A stretch of DNA of 50,305 bases from Magnetococcales bacterium (lineage in GTDB: Bacteria; Pseudomonadota; Magnetococcia; Magnetococcales; JADFXB01): the NCBI GenBank assembly GCA_015233935.1, contig JADFXB010000015.1, positions 1 to 50,305 of the forward strand. Direction: 5' to 3'. Position 1 is the first letter of the stretch, and every line of letters starts with the position of its first letter. Position numbers and translations under genes: made by a program. A model generated the notes under the pieces. That model ran no database searches. It was not told the origin of the DNA and worked only from the letters and a program-made list of their open reading frames with translations. Positions 34,811 to 48,739 of the stretch are shown here, piece after piece.

Positions 34811-36976
34811 CTAGAAACGCATGGTCATTTCCTGGGTCATCAGCCACAGGTTGAAGGCGGTCATCAGGGCGATAAACAACAACATGGGCAGCAATTGCCA
34901 ACGGGTGAGACTGCCACCACCCACCAACAAACCCCGCGCCCGATGACGCAGAATATCCACCGCCAACCATAATCCCAAGGTCATAAGACCCGCCTGAATA
35001 TGAAAGAGCAAGGGTTCATAGCCCCCACCCATCATGCGCAGATGACGTTCCGCCGAAGTAAGTGCCGCAACACCCGTTCCCAACGGATTGGCAAAAATAT
35101 CCCACATGCCCCCCGTCTCCCGATAAAGATGGTCCATGTTGTGGGAGAGGTGATAGACAAACGCAATAGGCAGGGTGGAAAAAGGCAAGCCCACAAACAA
35201 CCGCTTGAAGTCGGCGGCAGGACCAGCCAACGCCCTGGTTGCCAAAATGGCCACCGCATAGAACCCCACCGGCAGGAAAAAGCCCGCCAACATACTGAGG
35301 GTAAAACTGATGATGGGAGTGCCGGTTTCCCCAAAAACGCCGGAAAGCCAGGTGATCCAGTCGGCCCAACCGGGCATCATGGTGACGCCGTGAAAACTGG
35401 TAATACCCAGCAAGGCCAGCATAAACCAGGCTCCATCCCACATGGGACGGGCATCCGCCAGGGCCTCCGAGGCGGGAGGACGCAACCGCCAGGAAACGTT
35501 GTCATGGGGACAGCTCAAAACACAGTTGCCGCAAGAGAGGCAGAAGGTGTTCTGTGCAAACCGGCCAATGGTCAAATGGGTGGGACAGGGTTCAATATCG
35601 GCGGAACCGTTGTAACACTCCATGGTTTTGCAAGAGGTGCATATTTCCTGATTCTGGGAGCGCACCTCAATGGGAGCCAGGCGGGAGTAGAAGCCCATGG
35701 TACGTCCCACCGGGCAAAAATAACGGCAGAAAGCCTTACGCTCAAACAGGATCAAAGAGACGGTGGAAAGGAAGACCATGATCAAAGCCATCAGAGCAGT
35801 GGCCACCGGGATACCGGTCACCCCGACACCCAGTTGCAGCCAGGTCAATCCCATGAACATGAGCAGGGCAGGCCAGACGTTACGCAAGACCAGGGGAACC
35901 TTCATGTTGTAGCCGGGGTGAGGCAGGACACGACGCCACAAGCGGTGGCGCACCAGCCAGGAGGAGATGGTATCCCAGGGGCAAATACCACACCAGGCGG
36001 AGCCAATAAAGAAGACCGACACCACCACCAACGGCCACCACAAATTCCAGACAAAAGTGGTGGCCAGGTTGCGCTCAGGTATGGAGGTGCCGAAGAGGCC
36101 GGCATAGACCACCAGCAAAAAGGCCGCCACCGAAAGAATTTTAAAGGTGACCAGGGGCCAGGGGGAGCGGTTAAGAAAACGCACCAGTCCACCCACATAG
36201 GGGGCCGTGGCCAGGTTATAGGATTTGGCGGGTCGTGATTCGGGCAGGCTGGCCAGCAAACCCCAGACCAACATGACCACCATCACCACCACCATGGGCC
36301 ACAGATAGGCTCTTGGTAAGCCGGGATGGTTGTGGGACTCACCCGCACCATGTCCACCGTGTCCTGCCTCGTGGCCAGCGGCGGGGGCAGCGGCGTGACC
36401 AGCGTGGTCACCATGATCTGCATGATTTGCTGCCGGGGCGGGTGCCGGGGCTGCATGATTATGCTGAGAGTGATCCATTACCGGAACTGGCGCGGGTGCC
36501 ACTGCCGGGGCGGGTGCCGGGGCTGCATGATTATGCTGGGAGTGATCCATCACCGGGGCTGGGGCTGGAGCGGGTGCCACTGCCGGAGCTGGAGCCGGAG
36601 CCGGAGCCGGAGCTGCATGATCATGCTGGGAGTGATCCATCACCGGGGCTGGAGCGGGTGCCACTGCCGGAGCTGGAGCCGGAACTGCATGATCATGCTG
36701 GGAGTGATCCATCACCGGGGCTGGAGCCGGTGCTGCATGATTATGCTGGGAGTGATCCATCACCGGGGCTGGAGCCGGTGCAGCATGGTTATGCTGGGAG
36801 TGATCCATCACCGGGACTGGAGCAGGAGCCACTACCGGGGCGGGAGTCGGTGCCCCATGATCATGATGGGCATGATCCATCACCGCAGCAGGGGCCGGGG
36901 TCACCGCTGGCGATTCAGCCAACGAAGACAAAGGAAGCATCAGCAGCAACGCTGCCAACCATGCAACACGTTTCAT
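34811..36976 (-). CDS. NosR/CcoG-like membrane polyferredoxin with periplasmic MDHSQH-repeat domain
   Basis: 721 residues. A Sec signal peptide (MKRVAWLAALLL..SSLA, cleavage near 20) leads into about 150 residues of seven MDH-(S/A)-(Q/H)-H-(N/D)-H units (33-183) joined by Pro/Ala linkers, then another His-rich stretch to about 217. Next come membrane helices from about 225, WCGICP near 329, FCRYFCPVG near 417, a CTSC..C..CP cluster near 445-467 and a classic 4Fe-4S site CLSCGNCVLSCP near 477-488, then more helices. The cores resemble NosR/NapH/CcoG. Met-His-rich repeats typically bind copper; CcoG is a copper reductase. Periplasmic metal capture coupled to membrane electron transfer is my inference. 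Upstream, 36977-37141 shows no clear signal. Confidence 0.82.
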   Translation of the reverse strand: MKRVAWLAALLLMLPLSSLAESPAVTPAPAAVMDHAHHDHGAPTPAPVVAPAPVPVMDHSQHNHAAPAPAPVMDHSQHNHAAPAPAPVMDHSQHDHAVPAPAPAVAPAPAPVMDHSQHDHAAPAPAPAPAPAVAPAPAPAPVMDHSQHNHAAPAPAPAVAPAPVPVMDHSQHNHAAPAPAPAANHADHGDHAGHAAAPAAGHEAGHGGHGAGESHNHPGLPRAYLWPMVVVMVVMLVWGLLASLPESRPAKSYNLATAPYVGGLVRFLNRSPWPLVTFKILSVAAFLLVVYAGLFGTSIPERNLATTFVWNLWWPLVVVSVFFIGSAWCGICPWDTISSWLVRHRLWRRVLPHPGYNMKVPLVLRNVWPALLMFMGLTWLQLGVGVTGIPVATALMALIMVFLSTVSLILFERKAFCRYFCPVGRTMGFYSRLAPIEVRSQNQEICTSCKTMECYNGSADIEPCPTHLTIGRFAQNTFCLSCGNCVLSCPHDNVSWRLRPPASEALADARPMWDGAWFMLALLGITSFHGVTMMPGWADWITWLSGVFGETGTPIISFTLSMLAGFFLPVGFYAVAILATRALAGPAADFKRLFVGLPFSTLPIAFVYHLSHNMDHLYRETGGMWDIFANPLGTGVAALTSAERHLRMMGGGYEPLLFHIQAGLMTLGLWLAVDILRHRARGLLVGGGSLTRWQLLPMLLFIALMTAFNLWLMTQEMTMRF
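36428..36880 (-). repeat. Met-His repeat array within the polyferredoxin gene
   Basis: Seven coding units with an MDHSQH(N/D)H core, spaced by 16, 24 or 30 residues depending on Pro/Ala linker length (PAPAPAV-type). Unit spacing variation and shared codons indicate expansion by unequal recombination. Not a CRISPR array: the units are in frame and of variable length. Confidence 0.9.
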
Positions 36977-37141: not shown

Positions 37142-38077
37142 TCACGCGGGAGTCTGGATGGTGATAACCCGATTGCGTCCCTCCCTTTTGGCACGATAAA
37201 GACACTCATCGGCCAGCATCAACAACTCTTCTGGAGAGCCTGGACAGCTATCAGGCAGGCAACAGGCCACCCCTACGCTGACCGTCACATGGCTGGCTGT
37301 GGGGGAAGTGGAATGGGGCAGGTTTTTTTCCGCAATCAGCGAACACATGCGCTCCGCAATCACCTGGGCACCCTGGGGGGTGGTTTCCGGCAGAATGCAA
37401 ACAAACTCTTCCCCACCATAACGCGCCAGAAAATCGGCGGGACGCTGCAAAGCCGCCTGCAAAGATTCAGCCACCGTTTTCAGGCAATCATCCCCAGCTT
37501 GATGGCCGTAGGTGTCATTAAAACGTTTAAAATGGTCCACATCGGCCATGATGATGGCCAGGGTGGAGTTGTTGCGATGGGCACGCCGCCATTCCAGACG
37601 CATGCGTTCATCAAAATGTCGGCGATTGCACACCCCGGTCAAACCATCCACCAGGGATAATCGGGAGAGAAATTCCCGTTGCCGTTTCAACATGAGATGG
37701 GTCTTGACCCGTGCCTTGACCACCGCCGGACGAATGGGTTTAGCAATATAATCCACCCCACCCACCGCAAAGGCCGCAGTTTCATCATGTTCTTCGTTAA
37801 GGGCGGTGATAAAAATAACGGGAATTTCTTTGGTCAAAGAGGCTTGTTTCAGCTCCTTGCACACCTGATAACCATTCATCCCCGGCATGATCACATCCAG
37901 GAGAATTAAATCCGGCTCCAATTGATTGGCCAGTTGCAAGGCTTGGGCACCGGAGGTGGCAAAAAATACTTCGTGCTCATCTTTCAACGTTTGATGCAAA
38001 ATTTGAATATTTTCTGGCGCATCATCCACGATGAGAATGCGCCCCGGAGAGGTGGTATTCCAATCACCAGAAGTCAT
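37142..38077 (-). CDS. Response regulator diguanylate cyclase (REC-GGDEF)
   Basis: 311 residues: receiver domain with phospho-acceptor D61 (LLDVIMPGMNG) and a GGDEF domain with the active signature RYGGEEF. An inhibitory RxxD site (RPAD) lies five residues before GGEEF, so product feedback is expected. Makes cyclic di-GMP, probably when phosphorylated by the hybrid kinase encoded just upstream, whose stop overlaps this ATG (38074-38077). Confidence 0.92.
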   Translation of the reverse strand: MTSGDWNTTSPGRILIVDDAPENIQILHQTLKDEHEVFFATSGAQALQLANQLEPDLILLDVIMPGMNGYQVCKELKQASLTKEIPVIFITALNEEHDETAAFAVGGVDYIAKPIRPAVVKARVKTHLMLKRQREFLSRLSLVDGLTGVCNRRHFDERMRLEWRRAHRNNSTLAIIMADVDHFKRFNDTYGHQAGDDCLKTVAESLQAALQRPADFLARYGGEEFVCILPETTPQGAQVIAERMCSLIAEKNLPHSTSPTASHVTVSVGVACCLPDSCPGSPEELLMLADECLYRAKREGRNRVITIQTPA

Positions 38078-40791
38078 GACACGCTCCTGTTCAACGAAGC
38101 CACAATATGCGGCAAGAAGGTGATGGCTTGAGGATAGTCCAGTTTATCCAAAAGATCCCGCATGGTTAGCCATTGTGGGGTGCTGGCATGGTGCGGGAAA
38201 AGGGTGGCCAAATGTTGGAAAACATCGTTGGCCCGCAGATTAAAAACAGTCAGATGATCGTGCAGCTCTTTGAGCAAACGTTCCCTTTCCTCCACATCCA
38301 CCTTGGAAATGGCCTGAGAAGTTGGGGGATTCTGTTGGAAATTTAACAAATCTCTGCCAGAGCGCAAGGTAAGATTCATACTGCTTTCCAGACCATCCAG
38401 CAAAACCGGCAGCAGATTGAAGTGTTGGCTGAGGATGGCCTTTTCCAAATCCTTGGCCCCCTGTTGCAATTCATGGGCTGCCAGATTGCCTGCCAGACCT
38501 TTAAGCATGTGTACCAGTTTGGCCATCTCCTGCCAATTTTGCTCCGCTAAAAGCTGGCGCAAGGTGGTGATATCCTGACTGTGGTTTTGCATAAACTGGC
38601 GAATCATTTTTAAATAAAAGGATTGATCCCCTCCCACCCGGGTGAGACCCGCTGCCAGATGAAAGCCAGGCAAAGTAGCTGGCCAGCCCTTATTGGCGTG
38701 TGAAGACTCACTGACCTCAACCGGTGGGGGCGGGTCACAAGTCAACCATTTGGCCAGGGTGGAAAACAGACGGTTGATGTCCACCGGTTTGGGAATATAG
38801 TCATTCATCCCCGCTGCCAGGCATTTTTCCTGGTCGCCTGCAATGGCATTGGCGGTCATGGCAATAATGGGAATATCCTGCATACCCAAGGTTTCGCGGA
38901 TGGCACGGGTTGCGGCATAGCCATCCATTTCCGGCATTTGAATATCCATGAGGATGGCATCCACCTGTATGGCCTGTACCTGGGAGAGGGCTTGGCGACC
39001 ATTGGCCGCAATGGTGATGGTGGCCCCTGCTTTTTGAAGCAATTCCTGAGCCACCTGCTGGTTGATCAGATTATCCTCTACCACCAAAATATGTTTGTTG
39101 GCCAAAAAGCCGGTATCGGAAGGGAGTTGCAGAAGATCGGGATTGGCTTGTACCTGGCGTTTGCCCAAAACCTCCAGGATGGTATTCCATAGTGAGGAGG
39201 CGGTAGTCGGCTTGGTCAAACATTGGTTGATTCCTATTTGCCGGGCATCCTTGCATAGTTTCTCTTGATAATAAGCACTTAGCAAAATAATGCGCGGTTC
39301 TCCCCGTGGGTTGCGATATTTTTCAATCAGCAGCCGACTGGCCATCATGCCATCCACCCCCGGCATCCGCCAATCCATGATCACCAGGGGAAAGTGATGA
39401 CCACGGGCAAACAGGGAGAGGGCTTCTGCACCGGAATGGACGACAGTGGGAATAAATTTAAAGGCATACAAAGTCTCCTGCAATATTTGACAGGAGGTTA
39501 AATTATCATCCACCACCAAGATGGGCAGACCCATCAGAATGGGTTCATTCAGAACGAGCTTGCTGGAGGCTTTGACCGGGCCACTCTTCTGGAAACGGGC
39601 CGTAAAGGAAAAGCGACTTCCCTCCCCCACCTGACTGGTGGCATGAATTTCGCCGCCCATAAGTTCTACCAAACGTTTGGAGATGGTCAATCCCAGACCG
39701 GTACCGCCAAAGTGACGGGTGGTGGAACTGTCCGCCTGGGTGAAAGGTTGAAACAAAAGACCAATTTGATCGCCTGCAATGCCGATTCCCGTATCTTGCA
39801 CCACAAACTGAAGATACTGGGTGGATGCCTCCCCCGCTGGTGAGGGGGCGGGGAAAACCGAGACCACCACTTCCCCCTTGTTGGTAAACTTGATGGCATT
39901 GTTTATCAGGTTGGTGAGTACTTGCTCCAATCGCAAGGGATCCCCCACCACCTCCTCTGCCATGAAAGGATGGGTGGACAAACACAACTCCAACCCTTTC
40001 TGGGCGGCTTGCGGGGCAAACCTCTCCACCACCCGTGCCATCAGGTTTTGCAGGTTGAAGGAGGTGTTTTCCAGTTCCAGTTTGCCGGCTTCGATTTTGG
40101 AAAAGTCCAGAATATCGTTGATCAATCCTAGCAAATATCGCCCGGAGGTGTGAATTTTTTCCAGATAATCCTTCATTTTGACATCGGGGGATGCCTGGAG
40201 GGCCAGATTGGTCAAACCCAGTACCGCATTCAAAGGGGTGCGGATTTCATGGCTCATGTTGGCGAGAAAATCGCTTTTGGCCATGCTGGCTCTTTGCGCC
40301 AACTGTTGGGCCTCCCGCAATTCAACGGCCCGCACCTGCAAATCCTGGGTTTGTTGACGCAACTGGCGTTCACGAAACACGGTATGGGTAACATCCTGAA
40401 CTTGCAACAACACATAGCGGGACAAACCACTGACGGCCATACCAGAGACAATGATCAACTGACTCATGCGTTGATCGTCTCCCACCTGGCGTGGCGAGGG
40501 GGGATAAAGGGGAAGAGGAGCCATGTTGAGTTTGTGGGAAAGGATGGCTGGCAGTCCGCGATTGGCGGCATCTTCCACGGCGGCCAAAAGACGACCTCCT
40601 GCCAGTTCAGGAAACAGTTCCAACAAACTTTTGCCCAGAACAAAACTGGCCTGCAAACCGGAGGCCTTTTCCATCCAGCGGTTCCAAAGACCAATCTTTT
40701 TTTGCTGATCCAGAACCACCATGCCAATGGCGGCTTCATCCATACAGGCGGTGAGCAGGGTATTTTCCAGGTCTTGCAGGGAGGGTGACAT
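38074..40791 (-). CDS. Cytoplasmic hybrid histidine kinase PAS-HisKA-HATPase-REC-REC-Hpt
   Basis: 905 residues without a signal peptide or membrane helix. A PAS domain (about 10-130), HisKA with H181 in SHEIRTPLNA, HATPase with GGTGLGLTISKRL, two receivers (D473 in MDWRMPGVDG; D616 in MDIQMPEMDG) and an Hpt domain with H761 in LVHMLKGLAGNL. A complete internal phosphorelay that can feed the receiver of the adjoining diguanylate cyclase. It starts 2 bases after the CheC stop, so it belongs to the minus-strand signalling operon. Confidence 0.92.
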   Translation of the reverse strand: MSPSLQDLENTLLTACMDEAAIGMVVLDQQKKIGLWNRWMEKASGLQASFVLGKSLLELFPELAGGRLLAAVEDAANRGLPAILSHKLNMAPLPLYPPSPRQVGDDQRMSQLIIVSGMAVSGLSRYVLLQVQDVTHTVFRERQLRQQTQDLQVRAVELREAQQLAQRASMAKSDFLANMSHEIRTPLNAVLGLTNLALQASPDVKMKDYLEKIHTSGRYLLGLINDILDFSKIEAGKLELENTSFNLQNLMARVVERFAPQAAQKGLELCLSTHPFMAEEVVGDPLRLEQVLTNLINNAIKFTNKGEVVVSVFPAPSPAGEASTQYLQFVVQDTGIGIAGDQIGLLFQPFTQADSSTTRHFGGTGLGLTISKRLVELMGGEIHATSQVGEGSRFSFTARFQKSGPVKASSKLVLNEPILMGLPILVVDDNLTSCQILQETLYAFKFIPTVVHSGAEALSLFARGHHFPLVIMDWRMPGVDGMMASRLLIEKYRNPRGEPRIILLSAYYQEKLCKDARQIGINQCLTKPTTASSLWNTILEVLGKRQVQANPDLLQLPSDTGFLANKHILVVEDNLINQQVAQELLQKAGATITIAANGRQALSQVQAIQVDAILMDIQMPEMDGYAATRAIRETLGMQDIPIIAMTANAIAGDQEKCLAAGMNDYIPKPVDINRLFSTLAKWLTCDPPPPVEVSESSHANKGWPATLPGFHLAAGLTRVGGDQSFYLKMIRQFMQNHSQDITTLRQLLAEQNWQEMAKLVHMLKGLAGNLAAHELQQGAKDLEKAILSQHFNLLPVLLDGLESSMNLTLRSGRDLLNFQQNPPTSQAISKVDVEERERLLKELHDHLTVFNLRANDVFQHLATLFPHHASTPQWLTMRDLLDKLDYPQAITFLPHIVASLNRSVS

Positions 40792-40793
40792 GG

Positions 40794-41426
40794 CTATCCT
40801 CCCAGTTTTCGTAGCTCATCCTGCAAATGAGCGATGGTGGACATGTCCAACAGCAGAATGACAAAGCCTTTAATGGTATTGCGTTGTGGGGTATGGGCAC
40901 CCGTAATAAAATCGACGATGAGAAAAACCACCTGTTGTAACGGATAAACCAAAGAGCCGTCGGCGGCGGATAAAGACAGCAACTCCTGACAACTGCCTTT
41001 CACATATTCTGGCAGATCAAATTCAAACTCGGTGGAAAACATGTTGGCAAAGGTTCCCAGGCAGGCATTGAGGATCACATTGCCCACTTCCAACAAACTT
41101 TCCTGTTCCAGCTCGGTGAGGGATTCCAGGGGCATATCCTCACCCAACAGGGTGCGTACCAGCTCCAGACTGTTGGATTCCGGATAGATGAGCATGGAGA
41201 CCCCTTGGAAAGTCCCCCGAAAATTTTGCCGAATGGCGGCCACCTGAGAGGAGGAGCGTCCTTCAATAATTTGAATGGCCTGCTGGCTGTTCACTATTTC
41301 AATGTGGGGTACCGACAACAACACCTCTTCCTGGATCATGCGGCTGAGGGAGTCTGCGGCCCGACCGATGCCCATATTGAAAATTTCTTTGATGGCGTCC
41401 TGCTCGAAGAGGCTGAAACTAACCAT
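40794..41426 (-). CDS. cheC: CheC-family phosphatase, copy 1
   Basis: 210 residues with two CheC active-site helices: DAIKEIFNMGIGRAADSLS (D-x3-E-x2-N) and ESLLEVGNVILNACLGTFANM (E-x2-N). CheC hydrolyses CheY-P; here its likely targets are the stand-alone receiver at 42145-42522 or receivers of the hybrid kinase. No chemoreceptor or CheD lies nearby. Spaced 35 bases after the second CheC gene. Confidence 0.85.
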   Translation of the reverse strand: MVSFSLFEQDAIKEIFNMGIGRAADSLSRMIQEEVLLSVPHIEIVNSQQAIQIIEGRSSSQVAAIRQNFRGTFQGVSMLIYPESNSLELVRTLLGEDMPLESLTELEQESLLEVGNVILNACLGTFANMFSTEFEFDLPEYVKGSCQELLSLSAADGSLVYPLQQVVFLIVDFITGAHTPQRNTIKGFVILLLDMSTIAHLQDELRKLGG

Positions 41427-41461
41427 GGTGGCGATTTCCAGTAGAGGGGATCAAAGGTAAC

Positions 41462-42148
41462 TCAACCATACTGGCTGGCAATAGATTGTAGTTGTTGTTT
41501 TAAAAAAGGCATGGTAATCAAATCGAGAAAGATCATCATAGAACCTTCCAGAGTGGCTCCGGGGGTATTAAAATGCAGTAAAATTTGAATAACGGGATCC
41601 TGTTGCGGGGGGTGCCTGCGTCGTTCTTGATGAAAGGTTTGATTGCTGGTACCACCCACCTTCTGGCGCACAATATTGAGTAAAAGTGGACGTAAATCGG
41701 TACGATGGACGGTGGGGGTTTGCCCTGTCAGTTCCAGTGCCAACAAATCTGCCAGACCAGACAGGCAGGCATGGAGCAGAATGTTGCCCAGCTCCTGGAA
41801 AATGTCCATTTCACTAACGGTGAGTTTGTCCGCCTCCTCCATGCCCTGGATTAAACCATGAATGGGGGTGGTTTGGCCGTGATCCCGCAAAAACAGGAAG
41901 ATATGCCCGGAGAGCTTGGCGGGGTTTTCGGTGTCGTGGAAATATTGCTGGATGGCCCACTGGGTTTGACAAAATATTTCCGAGAGCAGGTCCACCGCAG
42001 CTCGTTTGGCCATCAAGTCTAGTTCGGGGAGGTAGATTTCCACCTCGTGGCCGATGAGTTCGGAGAGGGCGGCAGCGGCTCTTCCCACCCCAAGATTGAG
42101 GGATTCCCGCAGGATATCCTTCTCAATCTCATCCAACAGATTGTTCAT
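41462..42148 (-). CDS. CheC-family phosphatase, copy 2
   Basis: 228 residues, a diverged paralogue of its neighbour. Both active-site helices are intact: DILRESLNLGVGRAAAALSE and DIFQELGNILLHACLSGLAD, each D-x3-E-x2-N. The C-terminal part has an insertion of about 25 polar residues (NQTFHQERRRHPPQ) absent from copy 1. Its ATG overlaps the stop of the receiver gene (42145-42148), so receiver and phosphatase are made together. Confidence 0.82.
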   Translation of the reverse strand: MNNLLDEIEKDILRESLNLGVGRAAAALSELIGHEVEIYLPELDLMAKRAAVDLLSEIFCQTQWAIQQYFHDTENPAKLSGHIFLFLRDHGQTTPIHGLIQGMEEADKLTVSEMDIFQELGNILLHACLSGLADLLALELTGQTPTVHRTDLRPLLLNIVRQKVGGTSNQTFHQERRRHPPQQDPVIQILLHFNTPGATLEGSMMIFLDLITMPFLKQQLQSIASQYG

Positions 42149-46383: not shown

Positions 46384-46413
46384 GGCCAATAGGATCCATT
46401 ATCCCTATTGGCC
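46384..46413. promoter_or_regulatory. Perfect inverted repeat abutting the first phage gene
   Basis: GGCCAATAGG (46384-46393) and CCTATTGGCC (46404-46413) form a 10-bp perfect stem with a 10-base loop that ends exactly at the ATG at 46414. In RNA it would hide the ribosome-binding region; in DNA it could be an operator. It also marks the boundary between the channel gene and the phage module. Confidence 0.6.
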
Positions 46414-47436
46414 ATGAACACACCCATTAAAATACCTATTTTCAGGACGGGCCACCACGTTGCTCAAGACGGGGTGGCTCTGGATTTCACTGTGGCCGAT
46501 CTGATTGCCACGGCGGATGCCTACAAGCCTAACGTGCATGAGGCACCCCTGGTGGTTGGTCACCCTCAACTGGATGCCCCCGCCTTTGGTTGGGTGGTAT
46601 CCCTGCAAGTGGAAGGAGACCTCCTTCTCGCCGAAACCCGCCAGGTGGATGAATCATTCGCCGAAATGGTGCGGCAAGGACGCTTCAAGAAGGTATCGGC
46701 CTCTTTCTATCTCCCCGACAGCCCCCGCAATCCCCAACCCGGCGTGTATTACTTACGTCATGTAGGCTTTTTGGGGGCTGAGCCACCTGCCATCAAGGGA
46801 TTGCCCGATCCCGCTTTTGCCGATGGCCCGGAAGGTGGCGACACCATCTCCCTGGAATATTGCGAAATGGAAGGGGCTGGTCAACGTGGAGGTGTGCTCC
46901 ATCGGTTACGCCAATGGATCGCTTTGCGTTTTGGCCAGGCGGAAGCGGAAACCGTGGTGCCAGAAGCCTGTCTGGTGCCAGAGGTTCACCCCGCCTTCAG
47001 CGAACGGGAACAACAACTGGAAACACGGCATCGCCAGCAGGAGCAACGGGAGGAAGCCTGGCGGCAGCAGCGGGTGGTGGAGTTTGTGGAATCCCTGGTG
47101 GGGAGTGGACAACTGGTTCCTGCCGAACGGGAGCATTGGGTGGCCATGTTGAATCTGGTGGGACAACGGGAGCAGGTGGCCTTTGGCGAGGAGGGGGAGG
47201 GTTCACTGGCAAGTTGGTTGCGTCAGTGGCTCTCCCAACGTCCTGTGGTGGTGCAGTACAGCGAATTGGCCGGGGATACGGTGGCAGGCTGGGATGAAGG
47301 TTATCAAACACCTGTCGGTTATCGGGTTGAAGCTGGCTCTCTCGCCTTGCATCAACGGATTTTGGCCTACTCCCGCCAATCGGGAAGTGATTATGTGACC
47401 GCCATGCGGGCGGTCCGCAACTGTCAAGGAGAGTGA
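46414..47436 (+). CDS. Mu-like phage protease/scaffold protein (gpI-like)
   Basis: 340 residues. The N-terminal part (KIPIFRTGHH...; TVADLIATADAY; HEAPLVVGHPQLDAPAFGWV; GRFKKVSASFY) matches Mu gpI-type prohead protease/scaffold proteins. A Glu/Gln-rich middle (about 190-225) fits the scaffold coiled coil. It should guide capsid assembly and cut the scaffold. ATG at 46414 lies just after the inverted repeat and lacks a clear ribosome-binding site. Upstream portal, terminase and gpF/gpG genes expected in a Mu-like order are absent. Confidence 0.8.
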   Translation: MNTPIKIPIFRTGHHVAQDGVALDFTVADLIATADAYKPNVHEAPLVVGHPQLDAPAFGWVVSLQVEGDLLLAETRQVDESFAEMVRQGRFKKVSASFYLPDSPRNPQPGVYYLRHVGFLGAEPPAIKGLPDPAFADGPEGGDTISLEYCEMEGAGQRGGVLHRLRQWIALRFGQAEAETVVPEACLVPEVHPAFSEREQQLETRHRQQEQREEAWRQQRVVEFVESLVGSGQLVPAEREHWVAMLNLVGQREQVAFGEEGEGSLASWLRQWLSQRPVVVQYSELAGDTVAGWDEGYQTPVGYRVEAGSLALHQRILAYSRQSGSDYVTAMRAVRNCQGE

Positions 47437-47438
47437 GG

Positions 47439-47777
47439 ATGAGTCAGCAGAGTGTGCCGGTGATGGCGTTGACGGTGACGGCCAGCAGTGCGGTGGCGGC
47501 AGGGCGTTTTGTCACCGTGGCGGGGGGGCAGGCGGGGGCAGGGGTGAACACTTTGGGGGTGGCCCGGTTTGCCGCTGCCTCCGGTGAATTGCTCACCGTG
47601 GATGTGTTGGGCACCGCCATTGTGGAGGCGGGGGCGGCCATCAGTCTGGGGGCGGCGGTGGAAACCGATGCCAATGGCAAGGCCGTTACTCTGGATGCTG
47701 GACCGGCGGTGGGGCGGGTGTTACAGGCTGCCAGCGGGGCCGGTTCCTTCGTGGAAATGGTTTTGATCCCCAATTGA
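47439..47777 (+). CDS. DUF2190-like capsid decoration protein
   Basis: 112 residues, rich in Ala, Gly and Val, with short beta-strand repeats (SAVAAGRFVTVAGG; GTAIVEAGAAISLGAAV; GRVLQAASGAGSFVEMVL) typical of DUF2190/head-decoration proteins found between the scaffold and the major capsid gene. Starts 2 bases after the gpI stop with AGGAG upstream. Confidence 0.75.
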   Translation: MSQQSVPVMALTVTASSAVAAGRFVTVAGGQAGAGVNTLGVARFAAASGELLTVDVLGTAIVEAGAAISLGAAVETDANGKAVTLDAGPAVGRVLQAASGAGSFVEMVLIPN

Positions 47778-47809
47778 CAATTCAAAAAGCATGATCAAGG
47801 AGAGCGTTC

Positions 47810-48739
47810 ATGACGCAGCAGAGTCCTTTGCAGGTACGGGTGGTTGATCCGGTGTTGTCCCAGGTGGCCCAGGGTTATCGTCACACGGAAATGGTGGGCA
47901 ATACCTTGTTTCCCCATGTGACCACCCATGTTTCCGGTGGTCAGGTGTTGGAATTTGGCAAGGAGAGTTTTCGTCTTTACCAGGCTCGCCGTGCCCCTGG
48001 TTCTCATACCCGTCGCATTCAGTTTGGTTACCTGGGCCGTTCCTTTGCCCTGGTGCAGGATGCCTTGGAGGGGCAGGTGCCACGGGAATATTTGCGGGAT
48101 GCCGCTGAAGTTCCTGGTGTCAAGCTGGATGAGCGGGCGGTCAATGGGGCCATGCGTGCTTTGTCCATGACCCTGGAATATGACCAGGCCCAGTTGGCTA
48201 CCAATGCCAGCAACTATGACAATGACCACAAGGTGGCCCTTTCGGGCACGGACAAGTGGAGTGATGGTTCGGCCAAGCCCACCGATGATATTGAGGCAGG
48301 CAAGGAGGCCATTCGGCAGTCGGTGGGTATCTTCCCCAACACCTTGTTGTTGTCTGCCCAGGCTTTCAAGGCGGTGAAGGGCAATCCCAATGTGGTGGAG
48401 CGTTTTAAGTACACCAGTCGGGAGTCCATCACGGCGGAAATGTTGGCCAGTTTGTGGGATCTTTCCCGGGTGGTGGTGGGCAAGGCGGTGGCCTTTCATG
48501 ATGCGGGGGAGGCCATCGACATTTGGGGCAACAATGCCATCCTGGCTTATGTGCCGGAGAAGCCGTCGGGCATGGAGGATCCTTCCTTCGGTTACACCTA
48601 TGTGATGGCCGATCATCCGTTGGTGGAAAAGCCCTATTATGACAATGCTTCCAAATCCTGGGTTTATCCGGTGACTTTTGAGCGGGTGCCGGTGTTGACC
48701 GGTATTCTGTCCGGCTACCTGATTCAGAATCCGGCCTGA
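47810..48739 (+). CDS. Phage major capsid protein
   Basis: 309 residues. Position after the decoration gene, size, and segments such as QVLEFGKESFRLY, FGYLGRSFALVQDALEGQVP, FPNTLLLSAQAFKAVKGNP and WGNNAILAYVPEKPS fit HK97-fold major capsid proteins. AAGGAGAG lies 7 bases upstream of the ATG. Its stop overlaps the next ATG. Confidence 0.8.
   Translation: MTQQSPLQVRVVDPVLSQVAQGYRHTEMVGNTLFPHVTTHVSGGQVLEFGKESFRLYQARRAPGSHTRRIQFGYLGRSFALVQDALEGQVPREYLRDAAEVPGVKLDERAVNGAMRALSMTLEYDQAQLATNASNYDNDHKVALSGTDKWSDGSAKPTDDIEAGKEAIRQSVGIFPNTLLLSAQAFKAVKGNPNVVERFKYTSRESITAEMLASLWDLSRVVVGKAVAFHDAGEAIDIWGNNAILAYVPEKPSGMEDPSFGYTYVMADHPLVEKPYYDNASKSWVYPVTFERVPVLTGILSGYLIQNPA

Follow-up and report, generated by a model that had tools for sequence, protein, structure and literature searches.

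The window analysed here, a stretch of 50,305 nucleotides from a Magnetococcales bacterium, belongs to a 4.5-Mb MAG that is 93% complete and 7% contaminated, and harbors on its minus strand an intact open reading frame that begins with ATG and encodes 721 amino acids before the stop codon (Table 1). The conserved core of the encoded protein is found in the same reading frame in homologues from other genomes, at 43–74% identity, which indicates that the frame is real and rules out a wrong-frame artefact. As read from the sequence, the protein consists of a hydrophobic, signal-like N-terminus (residues 4–25 by hydropathy), a His-rich periplasmic domain made of seven MDHxxHxH units and a second His-rich stretch, and a membrane polyferredoxin core of about 500 residues with CGICP and CRYFCP motifs; for all these parts the initial annotation of this DNA proved accurate. 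The gene is flanked by mnmA and by a GGDEF/histidine-kinase pair; neither an adjoining metal gene nor an Ftr1 permease gene was seen around it, and promoter- or terminator-like sites are no commoner there than in shuffles. Upstream of the gene and on the same strand, positions 37142–42148 encode a hybrid histidine kinase, a response regulator-GGDEF protein and two CheC/CheX-like proteins, the latter call referring to a Pfam match run on the protein at 40794–41426. Elsewhere in the window, the product of 47810–48739 matches phage major capsid protein E in Pfam; the region 46408–48739 is likely a prophage fragment, in which the unmatched ORF upstream of the capsid match may encode a head protease.

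Table 1. Features of the polyferredoxin gene, in window coordinates
Feature	Position	Strand	Basis
Whole gene: signal peptide, His-rich periplasmic domain, polyferredoxin membrane core	34811..36976	-	ORF, homologues
Signal-peptide-like N-terminus, residues 1-20	36917..36976	-	hydropathy, sequence
Seven MDHxxHxH units, residues 33-174, with Ala/Pro/Val linkers between	36455..36880	-	sequence, DNA repeat analysis
Second His-rich stretch, residues 184-217, ending HNHPGLP	36326..36427	-	sequence
HPG motif, directly before the first core helix	36320..36328	-	alignment
CGICP motif, residues 329-333	35978..35992	-	alignment
CRYFCP motif, residues 417-422	35711..35728	-	alignment; Pfam Fer4_5
Divergent 4Fe-4S cysteine site, residues 446-465 (CxxCx4C...CP)	35582..35641	-	invariant cysteines
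Classic 4Fe-4S site CxxCxxCxxxCP, residues 479-490	35507..35542	-	Pfam, alignment
C-terminal multi-helix membrane domain, residues 507-721	34814..35458	-	alignment; model pLDDT 84

The alignment of 29 homologues reveals that all 12 core cysteines are invariant and that the HPG motif keeps its P and G in every sequence and its H in nearly all. Two 4Fe-4S sites are predicted in the core: the classic one (C479-x2-C-x2-C-x3-CP), which had been recognized at the outset as the sole site, and a divergent one that this count had missed (C446-x2-C449-x4-C454 ... C464-P). Pfam returned Fer4_5 and weak Fer4 matches on the protein and nothing else. In the C-terminal membrane domain, H529, H609, H612, H616, E620 and a C-terminal MxMRF are invariant in the alignment and conserved across the family, and H612 is also kept in FesM-like, Sulfurovum, haloarchaeal and Deinococcus relatives; simple hydropathy together with the positive-inside rule would place these histidines, E620 and MxMR where the last helices meet the periplasm. 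Since this His/Met set is equally conserved in family members that adjoin a NapA-like enzyme, we rejected it as a copper site and regard it as a site of electron transfer in general, be it with heme b, quinol or a metal, rather than a copper signature. AlphaFold2 gave a confident model of the C-terminal domain (pLDDT 84) and a poor one of the whole core from 11 sequences (pLDDT 56), the Fe-S part of which is unusable. Foldseek searches of the PDB and viral libraries with these models found nothing at E ≤ 0.001, and a PDB sequence search with the protein returned weak ferredoxin-type matches and nothing stronger.

The assignment of this core to a NosR/CcoG type, made in the initial annotation, did not survive the comparison with family models. 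The protein scores 44.7 bits against a NapH cut-off of 213 and 17.6 bits against a NosR cut-off of 1000, no FMN domain being found by Pfam, and the CcoG model TIGR02745 gives no match at E ≤ 1; a true CcoG is encoded elsewhere in the same genome (C350, 485 bits for a cut-off of 317) and shares only 27% identity with the window protein over 107 amino acids. Cu(II) is a substrate for reduction by CcoG, which makes cells more tolerant of copper (PMC7558416). Like CcoG, FixG and RdxA, the window protein is a membrane Fe-S protein with two 4Fe-4S motifs; unlike CcoG, which has a C-terminal Ig-like domain, it has no Ig match in Pfam and possesses instead extra C-terminal helices forming a multi-helix membrane domain, as well as the N-terminal His module. 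With NapH/MauN and NosR it has in common CxxCP/CxxxCP membrane motifs followed by ferredoxin sites, while its C-terminal half differs from theirs.

By sequence comparison the core is distantly related to FesM-like proteins of cyanobacteria and to FtrD-like proteins. A cyanobacterial cyclic-nucleotide-domain protein, which we call FesM-like because of its domain order, aligns with the core over 358 columns (hhalign E 1e-26), H529 and H612 included, the comparison being weak for the C-terminal domain by itself (E 0.06); it carries cyclic-nucleotide-type regulatory regions at its N-terminus, where the window protein has a signal peptide and the His-rich domain. FesM has a known role in cyclic electron flow (PMC9003380). 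An FtrD-like protein, which works beside a metal transporter (FtrABCD iron uptake), shares the polyferredoxin core (E 8e-18 over 360 columns) but is devoid of the first divergent 4Fe-4S cysteines and of the C-terminal His set, both of which are present in the window protein. The distant relatives include this FesM-like protein, an Azospirillum FtrD-like protein beside Ftr1, and haloarchaeal, Deinococcus and Sulfurovum proteins.

Homologues that match the core strongly, at about 420 bits or above, occur in 21 of the 48 Magnetococcales genomes, several of which hold two or three copies; further ones come from a Sulfuritalea MAG and a few other members of the same phylum, the census outside the phylum consisting of one contig scan with a single-sequence query and a plasmid search. 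The periplasmic N-terminus differs between these homologues. It is His-rich in the window gene and 12 other Magnetococcales genes, and the Sulfuritalea protein has a short, His-poorer version of it (5 His in 169 residues). Five members carry a cytochrome c on the same core, four with three CxxCH motifs and one with a single CxxCH, and in one relative a triheme cytochrome, His-rich repeats and the core follow each other in tandem, split by a 94-N assembly gap. Another domain, which begins with HGPGR and which we read from its sequence as beta-type, is found on the core without any family match, with MDHSAH linkers in one member. This secreted HGPGR domain of about 270 residues contains conserved cysteines and is in some cases part of the core protein, in others the product of an adjoining gene (L069:7089-8000, L057:9756-10562, L061:743-1750); the L069 copy had no Pfam match. 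Some core homologues have no periplasmic module at all. In the core tree each type of module forms essentially one clade, the triheme cytochrome clade being sister to the His clade, and the basal module-less members adjoin a NapA-like molybdopterin enzyme, the L116 copy of which scores below the NapA cut-off. At L116, L117, L118, L066 and L067, module-less homologues cluster with the NapA-like enzyme, NapG/NapH-like ferredoxins and cytochrome c.

The fact that the sister clade holds a triheme cytochrome c at this port suggests that the port occupied by the His domain is a redox port, and the simplest reading of a cytochrome in one clade and a metal array in the other is that the bound metal, which may be Cu(II), would be the electron acceptor. 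The main rival to Cu(II) reduction regards the core as conducting electrons to c-type cytochromes of the periplasm (or from quinol); the His stretch would then provide only flexible metal buffering or a linker for docking, and no metal would act as redox substrate. The fusion of triheme cytochrome c to the same core in the sister clade and the NapA-like enzyme beside the basal members speak for such a conduit, and a role as linker or buffer would suit the relative in which cytochrome, His-rich stretch and core stand in tandem. The window genome also encodes a stand-alone triheme cytochrome that ends in His-rich Ala/Pro repeats and is 46–52% identical to five cytochrome-type relatives over about 350–395 residues; by the logic of gene fusion, this cytochrome would be a likely partner of the window protein. 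Its gene (L074:9739-11217, G000:C166, minus strand), which encodes a C-terminal QDHQHHDHAPAAPAP repeat tail, lies next to genes for an ankyrin-repeat protein and for a diheme-type cytochrome. A pure cytochrome conduit leaves unexplained, however, why the His clade alone sits in heavy-metal RND loci and why the MDHSxH motif is common to copper chaperone and storage proteins (both described below), and we consider it doubtful, if worth serious attention.

The MDHxxHxH units, seven in number, have their first residues at 33, 57, 73, 89, 113, 143 and 167 and are of three types (one MDHAHHDH, four MDHSQHNH and two MDHSQHDH). At least one unit appeared in 27 of 20,000 shuffles of residues 21–215 and two units in none, so that the array is not a matter of chance composition. 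The underlying DNA is a degenerate tandem array with a period of 48 or 72 and 80–92% match, the units having therefore arisen by duplication. One may wonder whether the repeats are simply low-complexity sequence born of slippage, with no selected metal function: the units are tandem DNA repeats, and both the sequence and the length of the repeats vary strongly among relatives. Within the core family the MDHSQH unit is restricted to the window gene; what its close homologues share is a domain rich in histidine and not the unit, and a lack of the domain in relatives thus gives no ground for refuting the initial annotation. Yet this richness (8–24% His) is kept in the N-termini of 13 of 13 Magnetococcales members of the His clade despite their differing units, which points to selection for histidine rather than for one repeat and renders slippage without function very improbable.

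Genomic context links the His clade to metals. Heavy-metal RND genes of the CusA/CzcA family adjoin 8 of the 12 His-clade genes with readable flanks (Sulfuritalea included; gene calls by simple greedy ORF choice) and none of 19 members of the other clades (Fisher p = 6e-5, relatedness not corrected). These loci also contain membrane-fusion protein genes and mostly outer-membrane-factor genes, and at L050, L051, L052, L054 and L045 the core gene lies near enough to its neighbours for co-transcription; the order of the genes varies among loci, which argues for more than one origin. In the Sulfuritalea locus a Cu-type P-ATPase is encoded nearby as well. Away from the window gene, the window genome itself has genes for Csp1, for CcoG and for two heavy-metal RNDs, one of them of CusA type.

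Against a reduction of copper it counts that the window gene has no metal genes as neighbours, that 6 of the 8 neighbouring RNDs lack the CusA methionine positions, at which Ser/Phe/His are aligned, and that the structure searches gave no match. Pumps of both types are present at other places in the window genome. One heavy-metal RND type, at L050:13421-16528, L054:4238-7363, L087:5681-8794 and L045:819-4028, has conserved ELDEHAEGVH and PISHRLDH in place of the CusA methionine triad, and a secreted protein of about 126 residues with no Pfam match adjoins it in most such operons. The same device might accordingly act on another metal (Zn, Ni, Co, Cd or Fe), buffering or sensing it beside a non-copper RND pump; apart from the replaced triad, a heavy-metal P-ATPase beside the beta-module variant scores better as Zn/Cd than as Cu type, and the FtrD-like relatives sit with the Ftr1 iron permease. 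Conversely, the neighbouring pumps at L047 and L049 are of CusA type, outside the family MDHSxH is found on copper-related secreted proteins only, and with Zn or Cd, which are redox-inert, there would be no explanation for the Fe-S core, all of which makes a metal other than copper unlikely.

The company of the motif was traced by DNA scans of 61 genomes. MDHSQH was found in the window gene, in the tail of a PCuAC chaperone and in a secreted protein beside a CusB-type adaptor only, the reversed pattern giving zero matches as a control; the wider MDHSxH pattern added a second PCuAC, one core homologue and the Csp1 of the window genome, the remaining matches being chance ones in unrelated or spurious frames. 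The real secreted MDHSxH proteins outside the core family are, therefore, two PCuAC, one Csp1 and the one beside the CusB-type adaptor. The Csp1 copper-storage protein of the window genome matches a solved Csp1 with E 2e-24; this Tat-signal, Csp1-type protein (L151:1156-1782, G000:C403, minus strand) bears an N-terminal MDHSGHHH tail. The C-terminal extension of PCuAC carries Cu(II) (PMC7558416). The MDHSxH motif of the window protein is thus, as in the PCuAC and Csp1 tails, one common to secreted copper proteins of the relatives and of the window genome itself, but PCuAC and Csp1 are soluble and have one or two copies, whereas the window protein displays seven units on a membrane electron-transfer protein.

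Through the RND operons of the relatives and the copper proteins that share the motif, the proposal of the initial annotation that a metal module sits on an electron-transfer core is supported, while its NosR/CcoG assignment and its count of a single 4Fe-4S site are not: that the electron-transfer core bears a module for binding metal in the periplasm and is associated with the efflux of heavy metals is, in our opinion, very likely. There is support for a link of the window protein to metal handling, and probably to copper; since metal-efflux pumps adjoin its relatives, its probable role would be to bind copper and alter the charge of the metal ahead of export. To the full proposal, in which the protein captures Cu(II) in the periplasm and donates electrons to the bound ion, feeding efflux, we give a probability of roughly 0.45. 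The protein would then belong to transmembrane electron-transfer proteins of the FesM/NapH-like polyferredoxin superfamily, with a metal-trapping His/Met/Asp-rich domain at its periplasmic port. The MDHxxHxH units, together with the second His stretch, would catch Cu(II), possibly along with other metals, on the periplasmic side. Electrons, which we infer to come from the cytoplasm or from quinol, would cross the core by way of its two predicted 4Fe-4S clusters and then of the His/Met site conserved in the C-terminal membrane domain, and the trapped metal would be reduced to Cu(I), the form accepted by Cus-type efflux and copper chaperones, to which it would be released. Still more tentatively, it is conceivable that a single chain combines Cu(II) trap and reductase, the array being wired via the FesM-like two-cluster core and yielding Cu(I) for Cus-type export.

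The electrons might also run inward, periplasmic Cu(I) or Fe(II) being oxidized at the His-rich port and the electrons delivered to the quinone pool, a detoxification as proposed for Ftr iron systems. The homology of the core to the FtrD-like protein beside the Ftr1 permease agrees with this direction, as does the prediction that FtrC draws energy from oxidizing Fe2+ (PMC11966278). An oxidation would, however, work against efflux of the CusA type, for which Cu(I) is the substrate. Sites rich in His and Asp favour Cu(II), which also counts against inward flow, and we hold it to be quite improbable.

Searches of the open-access literature yielded no description of a His-rich polyferredoxin, be it from Magnetococcales or from RND operons; the parts of the window protein are of known kinds, and their combination and the module-swapped family are undescribed in the open-access papers searched. 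On a plasmid of Sulfurovum mangrovi (L152, NZ_CP087125.1, 356764-365117) there is a gene for a polyferredoxin that contains the stretch GHGGHGSHGG and whose C-terminus weakly resembles DUF4198; its neighbours encode an RND permease, TonB receptors and a 2-hydroxyacyl-CoA dehydratase-like protein along with the activase of the latter, a locus that possibly couples ATP-driven low-potential electrons to metal handling. The module-swapped family offers a natural test for the role of the FesM-type C-terminal membrane domain. If the reading as a single-chain trap and reductase holds true, the window protein would represent a second, CcoG-independent class of bacterial cupric reductase, in a family whose shared core is combined with exchangeable redox modules in the periplasm, and would illustrate how metabolic electrons may be coupled to metal efflux.
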